From NCBI RefSeq assembly GCF_001407835.1, contig NZ_CYUO01000004.1:262739-326738 (forward strand): a stretch of 64,000 bases of DNA, given 5' to 3'. The notes beneath the pieces were generated by a model. That model did no database searches, was not told the origin of the DNA, and worked only from the letters and a program-made list of their open reading frames with translations. Below, piece after piece: positions 33,785 to 41,713 of the stretch (position 1 is its first letter; each line of letters opens with the position of its first letter). Made by a program: the position numbers and the translations under genes. Source of the stretch: Lagierella massiliensis. GTDB lineage: Bacteria; Bacillota; Clostridia; Tissierellales; Peptoniphilaceae.

Positions 33785-35095
33785 TTAAGACAATTCTATT
33801 TTAAAAATAAATTTCTCTTGCGTCTTCGAAACATCATAGTTCAAATTATAATTTAGTAAAAGATTTCTGACTATATATAGTCCAAGTCCGTTGCTATTTT
33901 CTTTGCTGGAATTAAATTCTACATTAAAAATTCTGTCAATGTCAAAGTCACTTTCAAAATTATTTTCAATATAAAACCAATCATCACTAACACCAATGTT
34001 TATAAAGCCACCTTCTTTCGTGTACTTTACTGCATTACTTACAAGGTTTGATAAAATAATTTTAAGGGCAGACCTACCAATGTAAAGTTCTTCGCCTGAA
34101 ACCCCATTTTCAATGGTAATATTTTTTTGACTTGCCATTACTTTATACTTTTCTAAAACATCTTCTAAAATATCATTAATCCTTAATGTCTCTTCGTCGT
34201 CCTTTAAATGTTCCAGTGAAGAGATGGAAAGTATTTGTGAAATGTTTTGATTTAGTCCATCCACGATGTCAATACAGTTATCGATATAAAAATCTCTGTC
34301 TTTGTACTTTCCAATATTGAACTTCATATTTTCAAGTATTATCTTTAGGCTTGCCAGTGGTGTTTTTAGTTCGTGGGAGGCTCCTCTAAAGAAGTCGTAT
34401 TTTAATTTTTCAAGCTTTAAAATCTCTTTATTTTTGACTTCCAGGTCGTCAATGGAATCAAGCAGAGTAAAATATAAATTATTAATCTGTTCCTTTAGTT
34501 CTCCCACTTCGTTTTTAGAATCCACATTTAACCTTGCACCTTCATCAAGCTCCATCATCTTATCTGTAACATTTTTAATCTCTTGAATATTATTCTTTAT
34601 GGCCTTTGCATATATCAAAGACACAACTATTGAAAAAAGAAATGAAATTGAAAGGGAAAAGGGTAAAAATTTCAAACTTAGTTCCTTGGCATCTTTTTTC
34701 ATATCTGTAGTAGAAACAAATTGGACAAAGACTTTTTCAGAATCTTCTAAAGTGATTTCTCTTTCCTCGATGATTAAGGAGTTATTGTCACTACTTGGGT
34801 CGATGCCGATGTTGTTTTCAATGGGAACTTCATTGTCCTTAACATTTTCATTTACAAAGGCCTTTATGTCGCTGCTCTTGGAATAAAAATCCAGTGATTG
34901 TCTTATTGAGTCCAAGCTCTTTCCATTAAGGCTGGAAGAAATTTCATCTGCCTTTGAAGTAATCTCTTCCTTTCTGGTTTCCAAATAGGTTTTTGGAAAA
35001 ATAAAAAAGACAAGGGAGTGACTTAGAAGGATTATTACCCCAAGAACAGAAAATATCTGTATAAACATCTTAGGAAATATTTTTAAATTTTTCAT
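33785..35095 (-). CDS. Sensor histidine kinase
   Basis: A 436-residue membrane sensor. It has helices at about 10-32 and 143-165 bounding an extracellular sensing domain of about 110 residues, then a HAMP-like linker. The phosphorylated His is in FFRGASHELKTPLASLK. The ATP-binding domain has NLVSNAVKYT and NGLGLYIVRNLLLNY, while the usual DxGxG box is not clear, as in some VanS-like kinases. It overlaps the response regulator gene by four bases. The signal is unknown; bacitracin- or wall-stress sensing would be guesses. Confidence 0.87.
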   Translation of the reverse strand: MKNLKIFPKMFIQIFSVLGVIILLSHSLVFFIFPKTYLETRKEEITSKADEISSSLNGKSLDSIRQSLDFYSKSSDIKAFVNENVKDNEVPIENNIGIDPSSDNNSLIIEEREITLEDSEKVFVQFVSTTDMKKDAKELSLKFLPFSLSISFLFSIVVSLIYAKAIKNNIQEIKNVTDKMMELDEGARLNVDSKNEVGELKEQINNLYFTLLDSIDDLEVKNKEILKLEKLKYDFFRGASHELKTPLASLKIILENMKFNIGKYKDRDFYIDNCIDIVDGLNQNISQILSISSLEHLKDDEETLRINDILEDVLEKYKVMASQKNITIENGVSGEELYIGRSALKIILSNLVSNAVKYTKEGGFINIGVSDDWFYIENNFESDFDIDRIFNVEFNSSKENSNGLGLYIVRNLLLNYNLNYDVSKTQEKFIFKIELS

Positions 35096-35745
35096 CTTCT
35101 CTCCAATTTATATCCAACATTTCTTATGGTTACAATGCAGTCAAGTTCCAATTTTTTTCTTAGTTCTTTAATGTAGACATCTATTACACGATCGAATGGA
35201 ATCTCATCAGTTTCCTTCCATACATTGTCTATTATTTGAGACCTTGTTAGAGCCTGTCCTTCATTTTCTAATAGATATTTTAAAATCTCAAGCTCTTTTG
35301 CATTCATGTCGATGTCTTTGCCATTTAACTTTGCTGTATAACTTGTAAAATTGACCTCTGTGTTATTGTATTCAAATTTTTCTTTTGTTCCAGAGTACTT
35401 TTTAATTAAAGAATCTATTTGAACTTTTAATACTGGCAGAGAAAAAGGTTTTTCAATGTATCCGTCTGCCAAATTTGTAAATGCATCAATTTTATATTCT
35501 TCATCGCTAAATGCGGTAAGGATTAAAATGGGCAATTCGCTTTTTTTTCTAATTTCCTTTAGAACATCAAGTCCATTTATATAAGGTATTTGAATATCAA
35601 GTATGACAAGGTCCATATCATTATTAAATTTTTCTAAAGCCTCTTTGCCATCTCCAGCTTCTATAACTGAGTAGCCAAACTCCTGAAGGTATTCACTTAT
35701 ACCTTCTCTTATCATTTGATCATCTTCAACTACGAGAATTTTCAT
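35092..35745 (-). CDS. OmpR-family response regulator
   Basis: A 217-residue regulator. The receiver domain (1-115) has VVEDDQMI, the phosphorylated Asp in DLVILDIQIP, the switch Thr in ILTAFSDEE and Lys in YIEKPFS. The C-terminal winged helix (about 125-217) has LTRSQIIDNVW and VDVYIKELRKKLE. GGAGG precedes the ATG at 35745. It is divergent from pstS across about 175 bases, so a role in phosphate control cannot be excluded, but the pst operon carries its own pair. Confidence 0.88.
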   Translation of the reverse strand: MKILVVEDDQMIREGISEYLQEFGYSVIEAGDGKEALEKFNNDMDLVILDIQIPYINGLDVLKEIRKKSELPILILTAFSDEEYKIDAFTNLADGYIEKPFSLPVLKVQIDSLIKKYSGTKEKFEYNNTEVNFTSYTAKLNGKDIDMNAKELEILKYLLENEGQALTRSQIIDNVWKETDEIPFDRVIDVYIKELRKKLELDCIVTIRNVGYKLERR

Positions 35746-35828
35746 ATTTTCCTCCATGTAACTTTATATCTTAATTATACTAAAACAGCCCTATTTAATA
35801 AAATGAAATGATATTTACTAAATTCAAA

Positions 35829-35895
35829 TGTTAATTTATTTAACATGGAATTAACAAATCTCTACTTTTCATTTAACAAAGCCTTGTTATATTGT
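35829..35895 (+). promoter_or_regulatory. Pho boxes and promoter of the pst operon
   Basis: TTAACA occurs at 35840-35845, 35851-35856 and 35873-35878, i.e. spaced 11 and 22 bases, the direct-repeat geometry and sequence recognised by PhoP-type regulators in Gram-positives. A TTATAT (-10-like) begins at 35887. The pstS ribosome site GGAGG follows. This predicts induction at low phosphate. Confidence 0.7.
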
Positions 35896-35921: not shown

Positions 35922-36842
35922 ATGAAAGGGAAATTTAAATTTTTAGGAATTTTATTGGCAGTAACATTACTATTTACTGCATGTGGTAAAGGTGGGTCAG
36001 ACACAGACTCAACAGAAGGTGCTGGTAACGAAACAACAGCAACAGAGGAAGCTTCAAATGATACTGCCGGTGGAATTGAAGGAATGATCTCCGTTGTTTC
36101 AAGAGAAGAAGGATCAGGAACAAGAGGAGCTTTCGTAGAACTTGTTAAAGTTGAAGATGCTGACGGCAACGACGCAACTTCAGTGGAAGCAGTTATTCAA
36201 AATAACACTGAAGCAGTTATGACAACAGTAGCAGGAGAAAAATCATCAATAGGATATATCTCTTTAGGTTCATTAAATGATACGGTTAAGGCATTAAAGG
36301 TTGATGATGTTGAAGCCACTGCTGAAAATGTAGCAAATGGAAGCTATAAAATAGCAAGACCATTTAACATAGTTACAAAGGAAGAACCTACTGGAGCAGA
36401 AGCGGATTTTATTGGATTCATATTGAGTGAAGAAGGACAAAAGATTGTTGAAGAAGAAGGTTATGTAAAAAGCCCTGACGCAAAGGACTACACTCCTGAC
36501 GACAAAGTTACAGGTTCAATTGCAATAGCTGGTTCTTCATCAGTAACTCCAGTAATGGAAAAATTAGTTGAAGCTTATGGAAAGATTAATCCAAATGTTA
36601 AGATTCAAGTAAACATGTCCGACTCAACTACTGGTGTTCAATCAGTTAAAGATGGCATTGCACAAATCGGTATGGCATCAAGAGAACTTAAAGACAGTGA
36701 AAAAGATTTGAATAAAGTTGTTATAGCCATGGACGGAATTGCAGTAATAGTTAACAAAGACAACAGTTTAGAAAATATTTCTTTGGATACTTTAAAATCA
36801 GTTTATCTTGGAGAAATTGAAGACTGGGAAGATGTAAAATAG
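35922..36842 (+). CDS. pstS: Phosphate-binding lipoprotein PstS, circularly permuted
   Basis: A 306-residue extracellular phosphate receptor. The lipobox ends at Cys21 (LFTAC), with a Ser/Thr/Glu-rich spacer to about 52. The order of domains is swapped relative to normal PstS. Residues about 55-185 hold what is usually the second half (VVSREEGSGTRGAF, SIGYISLGSL, YKIARPFNIVTKE and FILSEEGQKIVEEEGYV). Residues 198-306 hold what is usually the first half (IAIAGSSSVTPVMEKL, DSTTGVQSV, IGMASRELK, GIAVIVNKDN and YLGEIEDWEDVK). All phosphate-site motifs are present once, so the protein may fold normally. It heads the pst operon. Confidence 0.9.
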   Translation: MKGKFKFLGILLAVTLLFTACGKGGSDTDSTEGAGNETTATEEASNDTAGGIEGMISVVSREEGSGTRGAFVELVKVEDADGNDATSVEAVIQNNTEAVMTTVAGEKSSIGYISLGSLNDTVKALKVDDVEATAENVANGSYKIARPFNIVTKEEPTGAEADFIGFILSEEGQKIVEEEGYVKSPDAKDYTPDDKVTGSIAIAGSSSVTPVMEKLVEAYGKINPNVKIQVNMSDSTTGVQSVKDGIAQIGMASRELKDSEKDLNKVVIAMDGIAVIVNKDNSLENISLDTLKSVYLGEIEDWEDVK

Positions 36843-36851
36843 AGTGATAGC

Positions 36852-37736
36852 ATGGTAGAAAAAGATAGAAAAAAGTTTTATAGAAAAGAAAATGCTTTTA
36901 AGTATGTAGCCCTAATATCTGCATGTGTTTCAATACTTGCAGTAATAGTGATTTGCTTCTTTATATTCTCAAGAGGACTACCTACAATAAAAGAAATCGG
37001 AATAAAAAACTTTATCTTGGGGACCAAATGGTCCCCTACTGCCAGTCCCCCAAGTTTTGGAATATTGCCATTTATTATTTCCAGTTTCTATGTAACTCTT
37101 GGAGCCGTAATCCTTGGAGTTCCTACTGGGCTTTTCACTGCAATATTTATGGCTAAGTATTGCCCTAAGAAATTACATTCTACATTTACTGCAGGAATAA
37201 ATTTAATGGCAGGCATACCTTCAATAATATATGGTTTCTTTGGACTTACATTGGTAGTTCCAGTTATAGCAAAAGTTATAAACAAAAATGGGCTAACAAT
37301 GCTTTCAGCGATTATAATTCTTGGGATTATGATATTACCAACAGTAATATCACTTTCACAAGCAGCTATAAACTCTGTAGATGAAAGTTATTACGAAGGG
37401 GCAATAGGTCTTGGAGCTACAAAGGAGAGGGCAATTTTTACAGTTGTACTTCCAGCGGCAAAGTCAGGAATTATATCTGCAATTATCTTGGGAATGGGTA
37501 GAGCCATAGGAGAGACTATGGCGGTAATCTTAGTTGCAGGTGGACAACCAAGAATGCCGAAAGGACTCTTTAGAGGAGTTAGGACAATGACTATGAATAT
37601 AGTTACGGAAATGGGTTATGCGGCAGAGCTTCATAGAGAAGCACTTATAGCAACGGGAGCTGTACTATTTATATTTATCTTGATAATCAACCTATTGTTT
37701 GTAATCAGTAAGAACAGGGGGATAAAGCATGACTAA
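36852..37736 (+). CDS. pstC: Phosphate ABC transporter permease PstC
   Basis: A 294-residue membrane subunit of the high-affinity phosphate importer. It has six helices (about 17-40, 68-95, 105-130, 142-160, 205-225, 265-285), the conserved LGTKWSPTASPPSFGILPF loop, PSIIYGFFGL and the coupling motif YYEGAIGLGATKERAIFTVVLP. The length is normal. It follows pstS by nine bases and overlaps pstA by eight. Confidence 0.94.
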   Translation: MVEKDRKKFYRKENAFKYVALISACVSILAVIVICFFIFSRGLPTIKEIGIKNFILGTKWSPTASPPSFGILPFIISSFYVTLGAVILGVPTGLFTAIFMAKYCPKKLHSTFTAGINLMAGIPSIIYGFFGLTLVVPVIAKVINKNGLTMLSAIIILGIMILPTVISLSQAAINSVDESYYEGAIGLGATKERAIFTVVLPAAKSGIISAIILGMGRAIGETMAVILVAGGQPRMPKGLFRGVRTMTMNIVTEMGYAAELHREALIATGAVLFIFILIINLLFVISKNRGIKHD

Positions 37737-38556
37737 ATCATCTAAAATTTTAAAATTTTTTATATATTTCTTTTCCATATTAACCCTATTAAGTTTAGTA
37801 TTTGTGGTGACATTTGTGCTTATAAGAGGAATTCCATATCTTGAGCCAAAGTTGTTTTCCCTTAGATACACAAGTGACAATGTGTCCATGTTTCCAGCGA
37901 TTATAAATACGCTTATAATGGTTTTATTGGCGCTTTTAGTTGCTGTTCCTCTTGGAATAATGACTGCAATTTACTTGGCAGAATATTCAAATAAAGATAA
38001 TTTAATTGTAAGAGTGGTTAGAGTAACGGCAGATACTCTATCTGCCATACCGTCAATAGTATATGGTCTTTTTGGAATGTTATTTTTTGTTATATATCTA
38101 AAGTGGAATATCTCAATTCTTGCAGGAGCAATGACAACAGCGATAATGATACTTCCCCTAATAATGAGGAGTACAGAAGAAGCTCTTATTGCAATTCCCC
38201 AAGAACTTCGAGATGGAAGTTTTGGACTTGGAGCAGGAAAAGTAAGAACAATTGTAAGAATTGTACTACCAACAGCCATGCCGGGAATACTTGCAGGTGT
38301 TATCCTTGGTATAGGAAGAATTGTAGGGGAAACTGCAGCTCTGTTATTTACATCTGGGACAGTTGCGGAGATTCCAAAACGCATTGTAGGACCTGCATCT
38401 GGAGGAAGGACACTGGCTCTTCATATGTATGCACTTTCATCAGAAGGGCTTAATGTAAATCAAGCCTATGCTACAGGAGTCATACTTTTAATAATAATTT
38501 TAATTATTAATGGGATTTCAACCTTAATGGCAAAAAAACTTGGAAGGAATAAATAG
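37729..38556 (+). CDS. pstA: Phosphate ABC transporter permease PstA
   Basis: The second membrane subunit, 275 residues with six helices. Conserved segments include LGIMTAIYLAEYS, SAIPSIVYGLFGMLFFV, the coupling motif DGSFGLGAGKVRTIVRIVLPTAMPGI and GRIVGETAALLFTSG. It overlaps pstC and is directly followed by pstB with no gap, as in other pst operons. Confidence 0.94.
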   Translation: MTKSSKILKFFIYFFSILTLLSLVFVVTFVLIRGIPYLEPKLFSLRYTSDNVSMFPAIINTLIMVLLALLVAVPLGIMTAIYLAEYSNKDNLIVRVVRVTADTLSAIPSIVYGLFGMLFFVIYLKWNISILAGAMTTAIMILPLIMRSTEEALIAIPQELRDGSFGLGAGKVRTIVRIVLPTAMPGILAGVILGIGRIVGETAALLFTSGTVAEIPKRIVGPASGGRTLALHMYALSSEGLNVNQAYATGVILLIIILIINGISTLMAKKLGRNK

Positions 38557-39312
38557 ATGAACAAAACTAAGATTAAAATAGAGAATTTTAATTCATATTA
38601 TGGCGATTTTCATGCCATAAAAAATGTGAATATGGAAATAAAAGAAAATGAGGTAACTGCATTTATAGGACCTTCGGGTTGTGGTAAGTCAACCTTATTA
38701 AAGAGTTTAAATAGAATGAATGACTTGGTTTCGTCCTATAGAAAAGAGGGTAATATATACTTGGATGGTAAAGAAATCTTCTCTGAAATTGATGTTTATG
38801 AACTTAGAAAGAGAGTTGGAATGGTTTTTCAAAAGCCAAATCCTTTTCCAATGTCAATCTATGACAACATTGCTTATGGACCAAGAACCCATGGTATAAA
38901 AAATAAAAAGAGATTGGATGAGATAGTTGAGAGATCACTAAAGCAAGCAGCTATTTTTGATGAAGTAAAGGACAAGTTAAACAAGTCCGCTTTGGCACTA
39001 TCTGGTGGACAACAACAGAGAATTTGTATTGCAAGGGCTATGGCTGTTGAACCAGAAGTAATTCTTTTGGATGAACCAACTTCAGCGCTTGATCCAATAT
39101 CCACTTCTAAGATAGAAGAGCTTCTTGATGATATGAAAAAAGAATTCACTATAGTTATAGTAACTCACAACATGCAACAGGCAACAAGAGTTTCTGATAA
39201 AACAGGATTCTTCCTACTTGGAGACTTGGTAGAGTTTTCTGACACAGAAGCAATGTTCAGCGTTCCCAAAGATCAAAGAACGGAAGATTATATTACGGGT
39301 CGTTTTAGTTAG
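38557..39312 (+). CDS. pstB: Phosphate ABC transporter ATPase PstB
   Basis: A 251-residue ATPase. Walker A is GPSGCGKST, the characteristic PstB Q-loop is [18 protein letters not shown], the signature is [16 protein letters not shown], Walker B is [13 protein letters not shown] and the H-loop is [14 protein letters not shown]. The length matches PstB. The start is one base after the pstA stop. Confidence 0.96.
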
Positions 39313-39320
39313 GGGGAAAA

Positions 39321-39998
39321 ATGAGAAGTAAATTTGATGAAGAATTAAATATGCTCAATGAAGAACTGACTGAGATGGGAGAACTAATCTCCGTTAGAAT
39401 TATAGAAGCTATAAGATCCTTTAGAAATAAGGACTTGATTAAGGCAAAGTTCATTATGGAAAATGATGATGATGTAAATGAATATGAGAGAAGAATCGAA
39501 GAAAGAGCTTTAAAACTCTTACTAAGACAGCAACCAGTAGCAAGTGACTTAAGACTTATTTCTTCTGCTCTAAAAATGGTTACTGACATGGAAAGAATTG
39601 GAGATCATGCTGTTGACATAGCAGAGATAGTAATGACTATTCCAGAAATTACTAAAGACGAAACTTATGAAAATATTATGGAAATGGCAGATGTTTCAAT
39701 TGAAATGTTAAAAGAGAGTTTAAAGAGCTTTGTAACAGGAGATCTTTCTTTAGTTGATAGTATAAAAAAACATGACGACAAAGTAGATGGACTATTTAAC
39801 AAGGTTCGAAAAGATGTTATTAAAGAAATAAAAACTGCTGATACATCTTCATCTGCAGAGTATGCAGTAGATATACTTATGACTGCAAAGTACTTAGAGA
39901 GAATTGGAGATCATGCTGAAAATATTTCTGAATGGGTGGAATATTCAATAACAGGAAAACATGTTGAACATTTACCACATGGAAAAAAGTTGGGATAA
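39321..39998 (+). CDS. phoU: Phosphate signalling protein PhoU
   Basis: A 225-residue cytoplasmic protein of two similar three-helix bundles. Each has the metal-binding ExxxD-type signature: ALKMVTDMERIGDHAVDIAE in the first and AKYLERIGDHAENISEW in the second. PhoU links the PstSCAB pump with the histidine kinase and lowers the Pho response when phosphate is ample. It is nine bases after pstB and one base before the response regulator gene. Confidence 0.94.
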   Translation: MRSKFDEELNMLNEELTEMGELISVRIIEAIRSFRNKDLIKAKFIMENDDDVNEYERRIEERALKLLLRQQPVASDLRLISSALKMVTDMERIGDHAVDIAEIVMTIPEITKDETYENIMEMADVSIEMLKESLKSFVTGDLSLVDSIKKHDDKVDGLFNKVRKDVIKEIKTADTSSSAEYAVDILMTAKYLERIGDHAENISEWVEYSITGKHVEHLPHGKKLG

Positions 39999-39999
39999 T

Positions 40000-40686
40000 A
40001 TGAGAACTATCTATTTAGTGGAAGATGAAGACAATATAAGAGATTTGGTAGTATATGCTTTAGATAACTCAGGATTTAAAGCAGAAGGCTTTCCTGATGG
40101 AGATTTATTTATGGAAGCTATAAAAAAAGAAACCCCAGATTTAATTTTGCTGGATATTATGCTTGAAGGCATGGATGGATATGAAATCTTAAAGTGGCTG
40201 AGAAGTAACGAAGAGTACAAGGATATTCCAGTTATAATGGTTACTGCTAAAGATGAAGAAATAGACAAGGTTAGAGGTCTTGACATGGGTGCGGATGACT
40301 ATGTGAACAAACCCTTTGGAGTTATGGAACTCATTTCGAGAATCAAGGCTGTGCTTAGACGCTATGGCAAAAATCAATCTGAAGAAGTTGATGGAAAAAT
40401 AATATTTAGAGATATTGAAATGGACCTTTCTAAAAGAACTGTCAAAGTTGCTGGGGAAAAAATAAAACTTACCTTCAAAGAGTTTGAACTTTTACACTAT
40501 CTTATCCAAAACAAGAATATAGTCCTTTCAAGACAAAAGCTTACAGAGGAGATTTGGGGATTCGACTACGAAGGTGAAACCAGAACAATAGACGTTCATA
40601 TAAGAACTTTAAGACAAAAACTCGACAGAGAAGGATATATCGTAACAGTTAGAAATGTAGGTTATAAAATCGTAGACGGAGAATAA
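40000..40686 (+). CDS. PhoB/PhoP-like response regulator
   Basis: A 228-residue OmpR-family regulator. The receiver has YLVEDEDNIRDL, the phosphorylated Asp in DLILLDIMLEGMDG, Thr in MVTAKDEE and Lys in YVNKPFG. The winged helix ends with TIDVHIRTLRQKLDREGYIVTVRNVGYKI. The ATG at 40000 is the natural start of the receiver fold; an ATG at 39961 within phoU would add an unrelated tail. Its position after phoU and the Pho boxes before pstS suggest it is the phosphate regulator. Confidence 0.9.
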   Translation: MRTIYLVEDEDNIRDLVVYALDNSGFKAEGFPDGDLFMEAIKKETPDLILLDIMLEGMDGYEILKWLRSNEEYKDIPVIMVTAKDEEIDKVRGLDMGADDYVNKPFGVMELISRIKAVLRRYGKNQSEEVDGKIIFRDIEMDLSKRTVKVAGEKIKLTFKEFELLHYLIQNKNIVLSRQKLTEEIWGFDYEGETRTIDVHIRTLRQKLDREGYIVTVRNVGYKIVDGE

Positions 40687-40687
40687 A

Positions 40688-41713
40688 ATGGACAAGGACA
40701 TTTTAAAAAAACTGGGAATAATTTACCTAAGTTTATTCATAGTGTTTAAAATATTATTTGACTACATTCTAAAGGCGAACAAAGACCTGATTTTAATAAC
40801 AGGTCTTATTTTGCTACTCTGCGCTACTATAAATTATTTTTTACTTTTAAACCAAAAAGCTAAGTACAATCCTAAAAATATTTCAGCAATCATAATATCT
40901 GAAATTTTTAACGATGACAAATTGGATATTAAATATGATGAAGATATAAAAAAACTCTTGGATATACTTGAAAAAGAAAAGGGAAACTCAATGTTTTCCA
41001 TGGCACAGTACAAAGCGATGGAAAAACTTCGTTCAGAGTTTTCTGCAAATGTAACCCACGAATTAAAAACGCCTTTAACATCTATAATCGGTCATGCAGA
41101 GATGATACATGAAGGCATTGCTAAAGATGAAAAGGCAAAAGAGTTTGCTGGAATAATCATTGACGATGCAAGAAAGCAATTGGAACTAATAACTGATTTG
41201 ATTTCACTTTCAAAATATACGGGAAAGGAAGCTATTAACTTAGAGATTACAGAATTTGATTTAAAACCTTTGGCAGAGGATTGCATTGACAATATAAAAA
41301 ATATGGCAAGGGTAAAAAAAATAGAAATAATAAAAGACTTAGATCCTGTAATTGTAAATGCGGATAGGGAAAAAATAGAGAGTTTACTAAACAATTTACT
41401 TACTAATGGAATCAAATACAATAAAATTGGAGGTAAATTAAAAATAACAGTATATTCTAATTTAGATGAAGCGGTTATTAGAGTAAAAGATACTGGAATA
41501 GGTATATCAGAACCTGATAAGTCAAGAATATTTGAAAGATTTTACGTGGCTGACAAGTCAAGGGGAAAAAATTCTGGAACGGGACTTGGACTTTCCATAG
41601 TAAAACACATTGCACTTGCCCATAAGGGTGAAATAAAAGTAAAAAATGCCCAAGGTGGAGGTTCTGAATTTATTTTTACCTTTCCAAAAAAATTAAATAA
41701 AAAAAATAATTGA
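40688..41713 (+). CDS. PhoR-like histidine kinase
   Basis: A 341-residue kinase with two N-terminal helices (about 7-28 and 35-56) and almost no outside loop, as in kinases that sense through PhoU and Pst rather than directly. The phospho-acceptor is in FSANVTHELKTPLTSIIGHAEMI. The ATPase domain has NLLTNGIKYN, VKDTGIGISEPDK and GTGLGLSIVKHI. It starts one base after the regulator gene. A terminator ends the nine-kilobase pst-pho operon. Confidence 0.9.
   Translation: MDKDILKKLGIIYLSLFIVFKILFDYILKANKDLILITGLILLLCATINYFLLLNQKAKYNPKNISAIIISEIFNDDKLDIKYDEDIKKLLDILEKEKGNSMFSMAQYKAMEKLRSEFSANVTHELKTPLTSIIGHAEMIHEGIAKDEKAKEFAGIIIDDARKQLELITDLISLSKYTGKEAINLEITEFDLKPLAEDCIDNIKNMARVKKIEIIKDLDPVIVNADREKIESLLNNLLTNGIKYNKIGGKLKITVYSNLDEAVIRVKDTGIGISEPDKSRIFERFYVADKSRGKNSGTGLGLSIVKHIALAHKGEIKVKNAQGGGSEFIFTFPKKLNKKNN

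Follow-up and report, generated by a model that had tools for sequence, protein, structure and literature searches.

The window, by which we mean the whole 64,000-nucleotide stretch of DNA analysed here, encodes on its forward strand a 306-residue lipoprotein (positions 35922–36842) in which the C-terminal half of the phosphate-binding protein PstS comes before the N-terminal half. This pstS is the first gene of a pstSCAB-phoU operon, which is followed by a PhoB/PnpS-like two-component pair. The features of the locus, with the basis of each assignment, are as follows.

35840..35856 (+), Pho-box-like direct repeat TTAACA-N5-TTAACA, with a further TTAACA 22 bases after the second (pattern search of the window)
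35922..35984 (+), lipoprotein signal peptide with lipobox Cys21, LFTAC (sequence)
35985..36086 (+), low-complexity tether from the lipid anchor to the folded part, residues 22–55 (sequence)
36087..36470 (+), PstS C-terminal half, now first, residues 56–183, SREEGSGTR ... EEGYVK (canonical profile columns 121–242; PDB matches in swapped order)
36471..36512 (+), linker between the old C- and N-termini, residues 184–197 (alignment)
36513..36839 (+), PstS N-terminal half, now last, residues 198–306, IAGSSSVTP ... DWEDVK (canonical profile columns 1–112; PBP_like_2 5–125)
36852..37736 (+), pstC (TIGR02138 above cut-off)
37729..38556 (+), pstA (TIGR00974 above cut-off)
38557..39312 (+), pstB (TIGR00972 above cut-off)
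39321..39998 (+), phoU (TIGR02135 above cut-off)
39961..40686 (+), PhoB-like response regulator (best NCBIfam match PhoB, 228 bits, below cut-off)
40688..41713 (+), PnpS/PhoR-like sensor kinase (best NCBIfam match PnpS, 236 bits, below cut-off)

The folded part of the protein runs from ISVVSREEGSGTRG at about residue 56 to EEGQKIVEEEGYVK (residue 183); the linker SPDAKDYTPDDKVT (184–197) follows, and the chain then continues from GSIAIAGSSSVTP to DWEDVK (198–306). The original prediction was that this PstS is circularly permuted with the VSREEGSGTRG half first, and both the swapped profile matches and the existence of permuted relatives bear it out. The predicted linker is likewise present, although its extent, given as about residues 186–197, has to be corrected to about 184–197. 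Compared with a profile of canonical PstS only (242 columns), as had been proposed for the two halves, the native protein gives two swapped matches, columns 121–242 in its first part and columns 1–112 in its second, and only an eight-column loop between the halves is left unmatched; when the halves are swapped back, a single match covers columns 1–242. Pfam PBP_like_2 also matches in two stretches, with profile positions 5–125 falling on residues 193–304. Both halves are homologous to PstS and the phosphate-site motifs are present; each half occurs once and nothing is duplicated, in line with the prediction that every core motif is found just once. Judged from its sequence, the protein is a PstS chain of new order, apparently broken open at the loop that precedes the SREEGSGTR strand and with its old ends linked. 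A search at the joints for DNA repeats, the marks of a recent rearrangement, returned weak short repeats only.

The new order has a consequence for annotation. With the NCBIfam model TIGR02136 (PstS), the protein scores 194.7 bits in its native order and 202.6 bits once the halves are restored to the usual order; both values fall narrowly short of the cut-off, 206.6 bits, which is an automatic naming threshold and not a biological defining feature. Half order as the full cause of the miss is thus rejected; it is responsible in part, because the swapped-back score remains below the cut-off. Profile annotation scores permuted PstS below the cut-off and labels it a 'substrate-binding domain-containing protein', so that pst operons appear to be without pstS.

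The operon was predicted to be complete, and it is: PstC, PstA, PstB and PhoU, encoded alongside PstS, all score above the cut-offs of their NCBIfam equivalogs. A second, hidden canonical pstS was sought genome-wide and is absent. The third PBP_like_2 match was considered as an extra PstS and rejected, as it is a LysR-type regulator; the expectation that this is the only pstS in the genome therefore holds. The Pho-box-like repeat is the sole match to TTWACA-N5-TTWACA in the window (chance expectation 0.24 per 64 kb) and lies 65 bases upstream of the pstS start codon, and the pattern is kept upstream of pstS in the nearest relative (locus L034). It looks like a Pho box, to which we putatively assign it, and expression of pstS may be under phosphate control. 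Two further arrangements were observed around the gene. At 36840–36863, pstC comes in the same frame after the TAG stop of pstS (AGT GAT AGC ATG), as it does in the nearest relative; readthrough would yield a PstS–PstC fusion, but the in-frame arrangement is probably due to chance. Directly upstream of pstS lies a divergent two-component system (33785–35757, reverse strand) of a response regulator and a kinase, whose best matches are the VanR-B and VanS-B models, far below cut-off.

Of the PDB sequences, 4h1x matches the protein best, and the two align in one colinear stretch (residues 52–306 to 7–265); other solved phosphate-binding PstS proteins match in two swapped stretches or over one half. 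For the fold, we used a template-free model of the mature protein (pLDDT 75.8, with low confidence at model residues 1–17 and 41–60) in place of an earlier prediction that included the signal peptide (pLDDT 64). Fold comparison with 4h1x gave Z 26.1 for 236 aligned residues at 3.0 Å, whereas canonical PstS gave Z 7–9 over the last ~110 residues only, and the Foldseek TM scores were 0.80 and 0.2–0.3, respectively. Alignment of the whole chain to 4h1x and of only a half to canonical PstS is what is expected of a circular permutation in a sequential aligner, and since the model behaves in this way, the permuted chain is predicted to form the PstS fold. The structure prediction that had been suggested as a check thus supports a two-lobe fold, and the crystal structure 4h1x, that of a permuted homologue, spans the whole chain. 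The protein shares with the 4h1x-like permuted group this full-length fold, a C-terminal half that comes first, an opening before the VVSREEGSGTR strand and old ends joined by a linker. In the architecture of E. coli PstS, the old termini are both on lobe I; by analogy, the new termini of permuted PstS would be on lobe II and the old ones on lobe I.

The permuted order is widespread. A colinear full-length match was obtained in 102 of the 130 genomes of the window species' family, the rest comprising 22 with split, weak or partial matches only (canonical or none) and six without a match. In the Lactobacillales, the order that includes Aerococcus, about 50 of 198 genomes have the permuted form, often with a canonical PstS nearby, and in a phylum-wide sample ten other genomes from eight further families were permuted and most others canonical. 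Among independently assembled related species, Mediannikoviicoccus vaginalis (94% identity) and Lagierella massiliensis (84%) have the same order, another independently assembled relative has it at 66% identity, and further named carriers are Aerococcus suis, Facklamia hominis and Monoglobus pectinilyticus. Uniqueness to the window genome is therefore rejected, and the rarity implied by the original prediction is not supported. The window gene belongs, as an ordinary case, to a group that is large and old and for which a structure has been solved. At the ORF level, the fetched loci (a redundant set) comprise 110 permuted (B-A), 40 canonical (A-B) and two A-B-A-B proteins; an additional B-A-B call, at L062, was owed to a spurious weak match. 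The suggested survey of relatives for tandem or permuted copies thus found permuted, tandem permuted, tandem canonical and fused A-B-A-B forms. Permuted and canonical PstS coexist inside single genera, and in three Lactobacillales loci (L124, L125 and L126) permuted and canonical pstS lie ~4–5 kb apart on a single contig.

A Treponema saccharophilum plasmid also carries a permuted PstS, with pstCAB-phoU behind it. On this plasmid, pTS2, a complete pst operon (L144, 5905–9923) is present in a spirochaete, which suggests that it came by transfer from Bacillota. A lipobox was found in 61 of 67 permuted relatives, with a median of 24 residues from the cysteine to the fold. The Facklamia-like permuted PstS proteins (L040, 3920–4945; L130, 1346–2461; L131, 1580–2563; L118, 194–1192) have no lipobox cysteine and their signal peptides have AFAQ-type ends; in the first three, the linker that joins the old termini contains long Glu-rich inserts, and L118 has a Glu-rich C-terminal tail in place of the linker insert.

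To place the permuted order on a tree, the halves of 106 proteins were aligned separately and then re-joined. All 68 permuted rows, the window PstS among them, fall on the same side of a single branch, which has moderate support (SH-aLRT 86), so that one change of order suffices. A chimera of two PstS lineages was rejected, as the trees of the first and of the second half agree on the nearest relatives. Since the canonical order is found in most other lineages sampled, we regard the permuted order as derived, most likely with a single origin in canonical PstS; the permuted form would then have been handed down by inheritance and transferred among Bacillota lineages.

How the order changed is less certain. 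A fused tandem duplicate with both ends trimmed is a plausible route because tandem permuted, tandem canonical and fused A-B-A-B PstS all exist. Adjacent duplicate pstS genes are both canonical in L127–L129 and both permuted in L075 and L084, and a fused A-B-A-B PstS of 531–544 residues is located before pstC in two genomes of one genus (L071, 7850–9481, reverse strand, 544 residues, in G412; L148 in G627; 75% identical). The fused protein shows that a duplication-and-trim intermediate is viable. It belongs, however, to another branch of the PstS tree than the permuted group, and the predicted ancestral tandem pstS pair cut at both ends is a plausible origin for this lineage. The new order might instead have come from direct segment exchange, by rearrangement or by fusion of two half genes, with no fused tandem duplicate involved, and it fits this alternative that the tree of 106 proteins shows no tandem intermediate on the stem of the permuted group. 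The fused A-B-A-B proteins and the adjacent duplicates argue against it, as does the fact that isolated half genes were not seen as a stable state, and we regard direct exchange as doubtful, if a real possibility.

We consider it improbable that several lineages were permuted independently at the same loop. The patchy distribution, the presence of both orders inside single genera and the two to three order changes in the single-half trees would favour such a history, but these trees are poorly resolved and contain no well-supported branch that contradicts one origin, and the patchiness can be explained by horizontal transfer. The full tree requires one change, the 67 permuted sequences inspected are all cut at the same place to within a few residues, and permuted proteins are closer to one another (mean identity 53%) than to canonical proteins (39%).

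We take the window residues R61, S65, G66, T67, S206, S207 and S235 to be the equivalents of phosphate contacts in E. coli PstS, for which we used R135, S139, G140, T141, T10, F11 and S38. Across all 68 permuted rows these positions do not vary, except that 206 is S or T, and phosphate binding by the window PstS is predicted accordingly from its sequence. SP_2084, the pneumococcal protein of 4h1x, is presumably the PstS of the pst1 operon. The two Pst systems of S. pneumoniae have been dissected genetically, and pst1, which adjoins pnpRS, is induced more than 100-fold at low phosphate and is required for optimal phosphate uptake after limitation (PMC4913102). A divergent binding protein that no longer serves phosphate uptake, but another anion or a sensory role only, would be in keeping with the unspecific name ('substrate-binding domain-containing protein') that relatives receive from automatic annotation. 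This is very unlikely in view of the conserved contact positions, the Pho-box-like repeat upstream, the position of the gene as the sole pstS of the genome at the head of pstSCAB-phoU, and phosphate import by the pneumococcal pst1 operon (PMC4913102). An assembly or cloning artefact, in which the halves of an ordinary pstS were wrongly joined, found no evidence in its favour and has a practically negligible chance, since independently assembled related species show the identical order at 94%, 84% and 66% identity, as do more than 150 further genomes and a crystal structure. We conclude, with a probability of roughly 0.93, that the product of the window gene is a working PstS in circularly permuted form, which serves a phosphate-regulated PstSCAB importer as its lipid-anchored phosphate-binding protein; the original expectation of function, supported by the sole pstS, the full operon and the conserved contacts, is thus probably right.

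In the mechanism that we propose, the chain would have been broken at a surface loop, known in canonical PstS as the 'GGNDAPI' loop, which lies between the '..NW(S/K)E(V/L)' helix and the 'VVSREEGSGTR' strand, and a linker of 12–15 residues would have come to join the former C- and N-termini. The bilobed fold and the phosphate site would be retained, while the start of the chain, and hence the entry of the lipid tether, would have moved, so that the tether may have been transferred to the other lobe. It may further be speculated, although we hold this to be rather unlikely, that a single ancient and apparently undescribed permutation founded a large Gram-positive PstS clade tethered by the other lobe and was selected because it alters how the protein opens, docks or signals at the membrane, in parallel to the permuted sugar-binding protein MglB-2 discussed below. 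The interest lies more in the permuted group than in the window gene, as the group is widely spread, most likely of one origin and apparently unremarked, and an intermediate topology exists elsewhere. Permuted PstS, in the window the sole PstS of its operon and as a group spread over many Gram-positive genera, is good test material for the origin of permutations and the effect of a moved lipid tether, with a canonical sister group and the fused tandem form elsewhere offering comparison.

In the open-access literature searched, we found no paper on permuted PstS and no mention of 4h1x; the permutation is apparently undescribed. The closest known system is S. pneumoniae PstS2/SP_2084 (PDB 4h1x, released in 2012 by structural genomics), which, like the window PstS, is permuted over its whole folded part, with ~44% identity and the same cut point. 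Its host belongs to the Lactobacillales and carries a canonical PstS (4exl) besides it; in the window genome, the permuted PstS stands alone. Canonical PstS, such as C. perfringens PBP-1 (4gd5/4q8r), is homologous in both halves and has the same phosphate motifs, but the opposite half order, and it keeps the GGNDAPI loop where the window PstS is opened. In the fused PstS–PstS, the middle (B-A) has the permuted order with the old ends joined, but the protein has four halves, unlike that of the window. MglB-2 of T. pallidum (Tp0684) is a natural circularly permuted glucose-binding protein of an ABC importer that also occurs in Gram-positives, and its authors propose a link between the permutation and membrane tethering (PMC4990184). 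It resembles permuted PstS as a permuted ABC-importer binding protein of spirochaetes and Gram-positives, but belongs to the type I sugar superfamily, has another cut point and is an independent case; the significant matches of the window PstS are all to PstS/PBP_like_2 or other type II binding families, and none to MglB-like (type I) proteins. By class, the window protein is a PstS, and by topology it is of the class of 4h1x.
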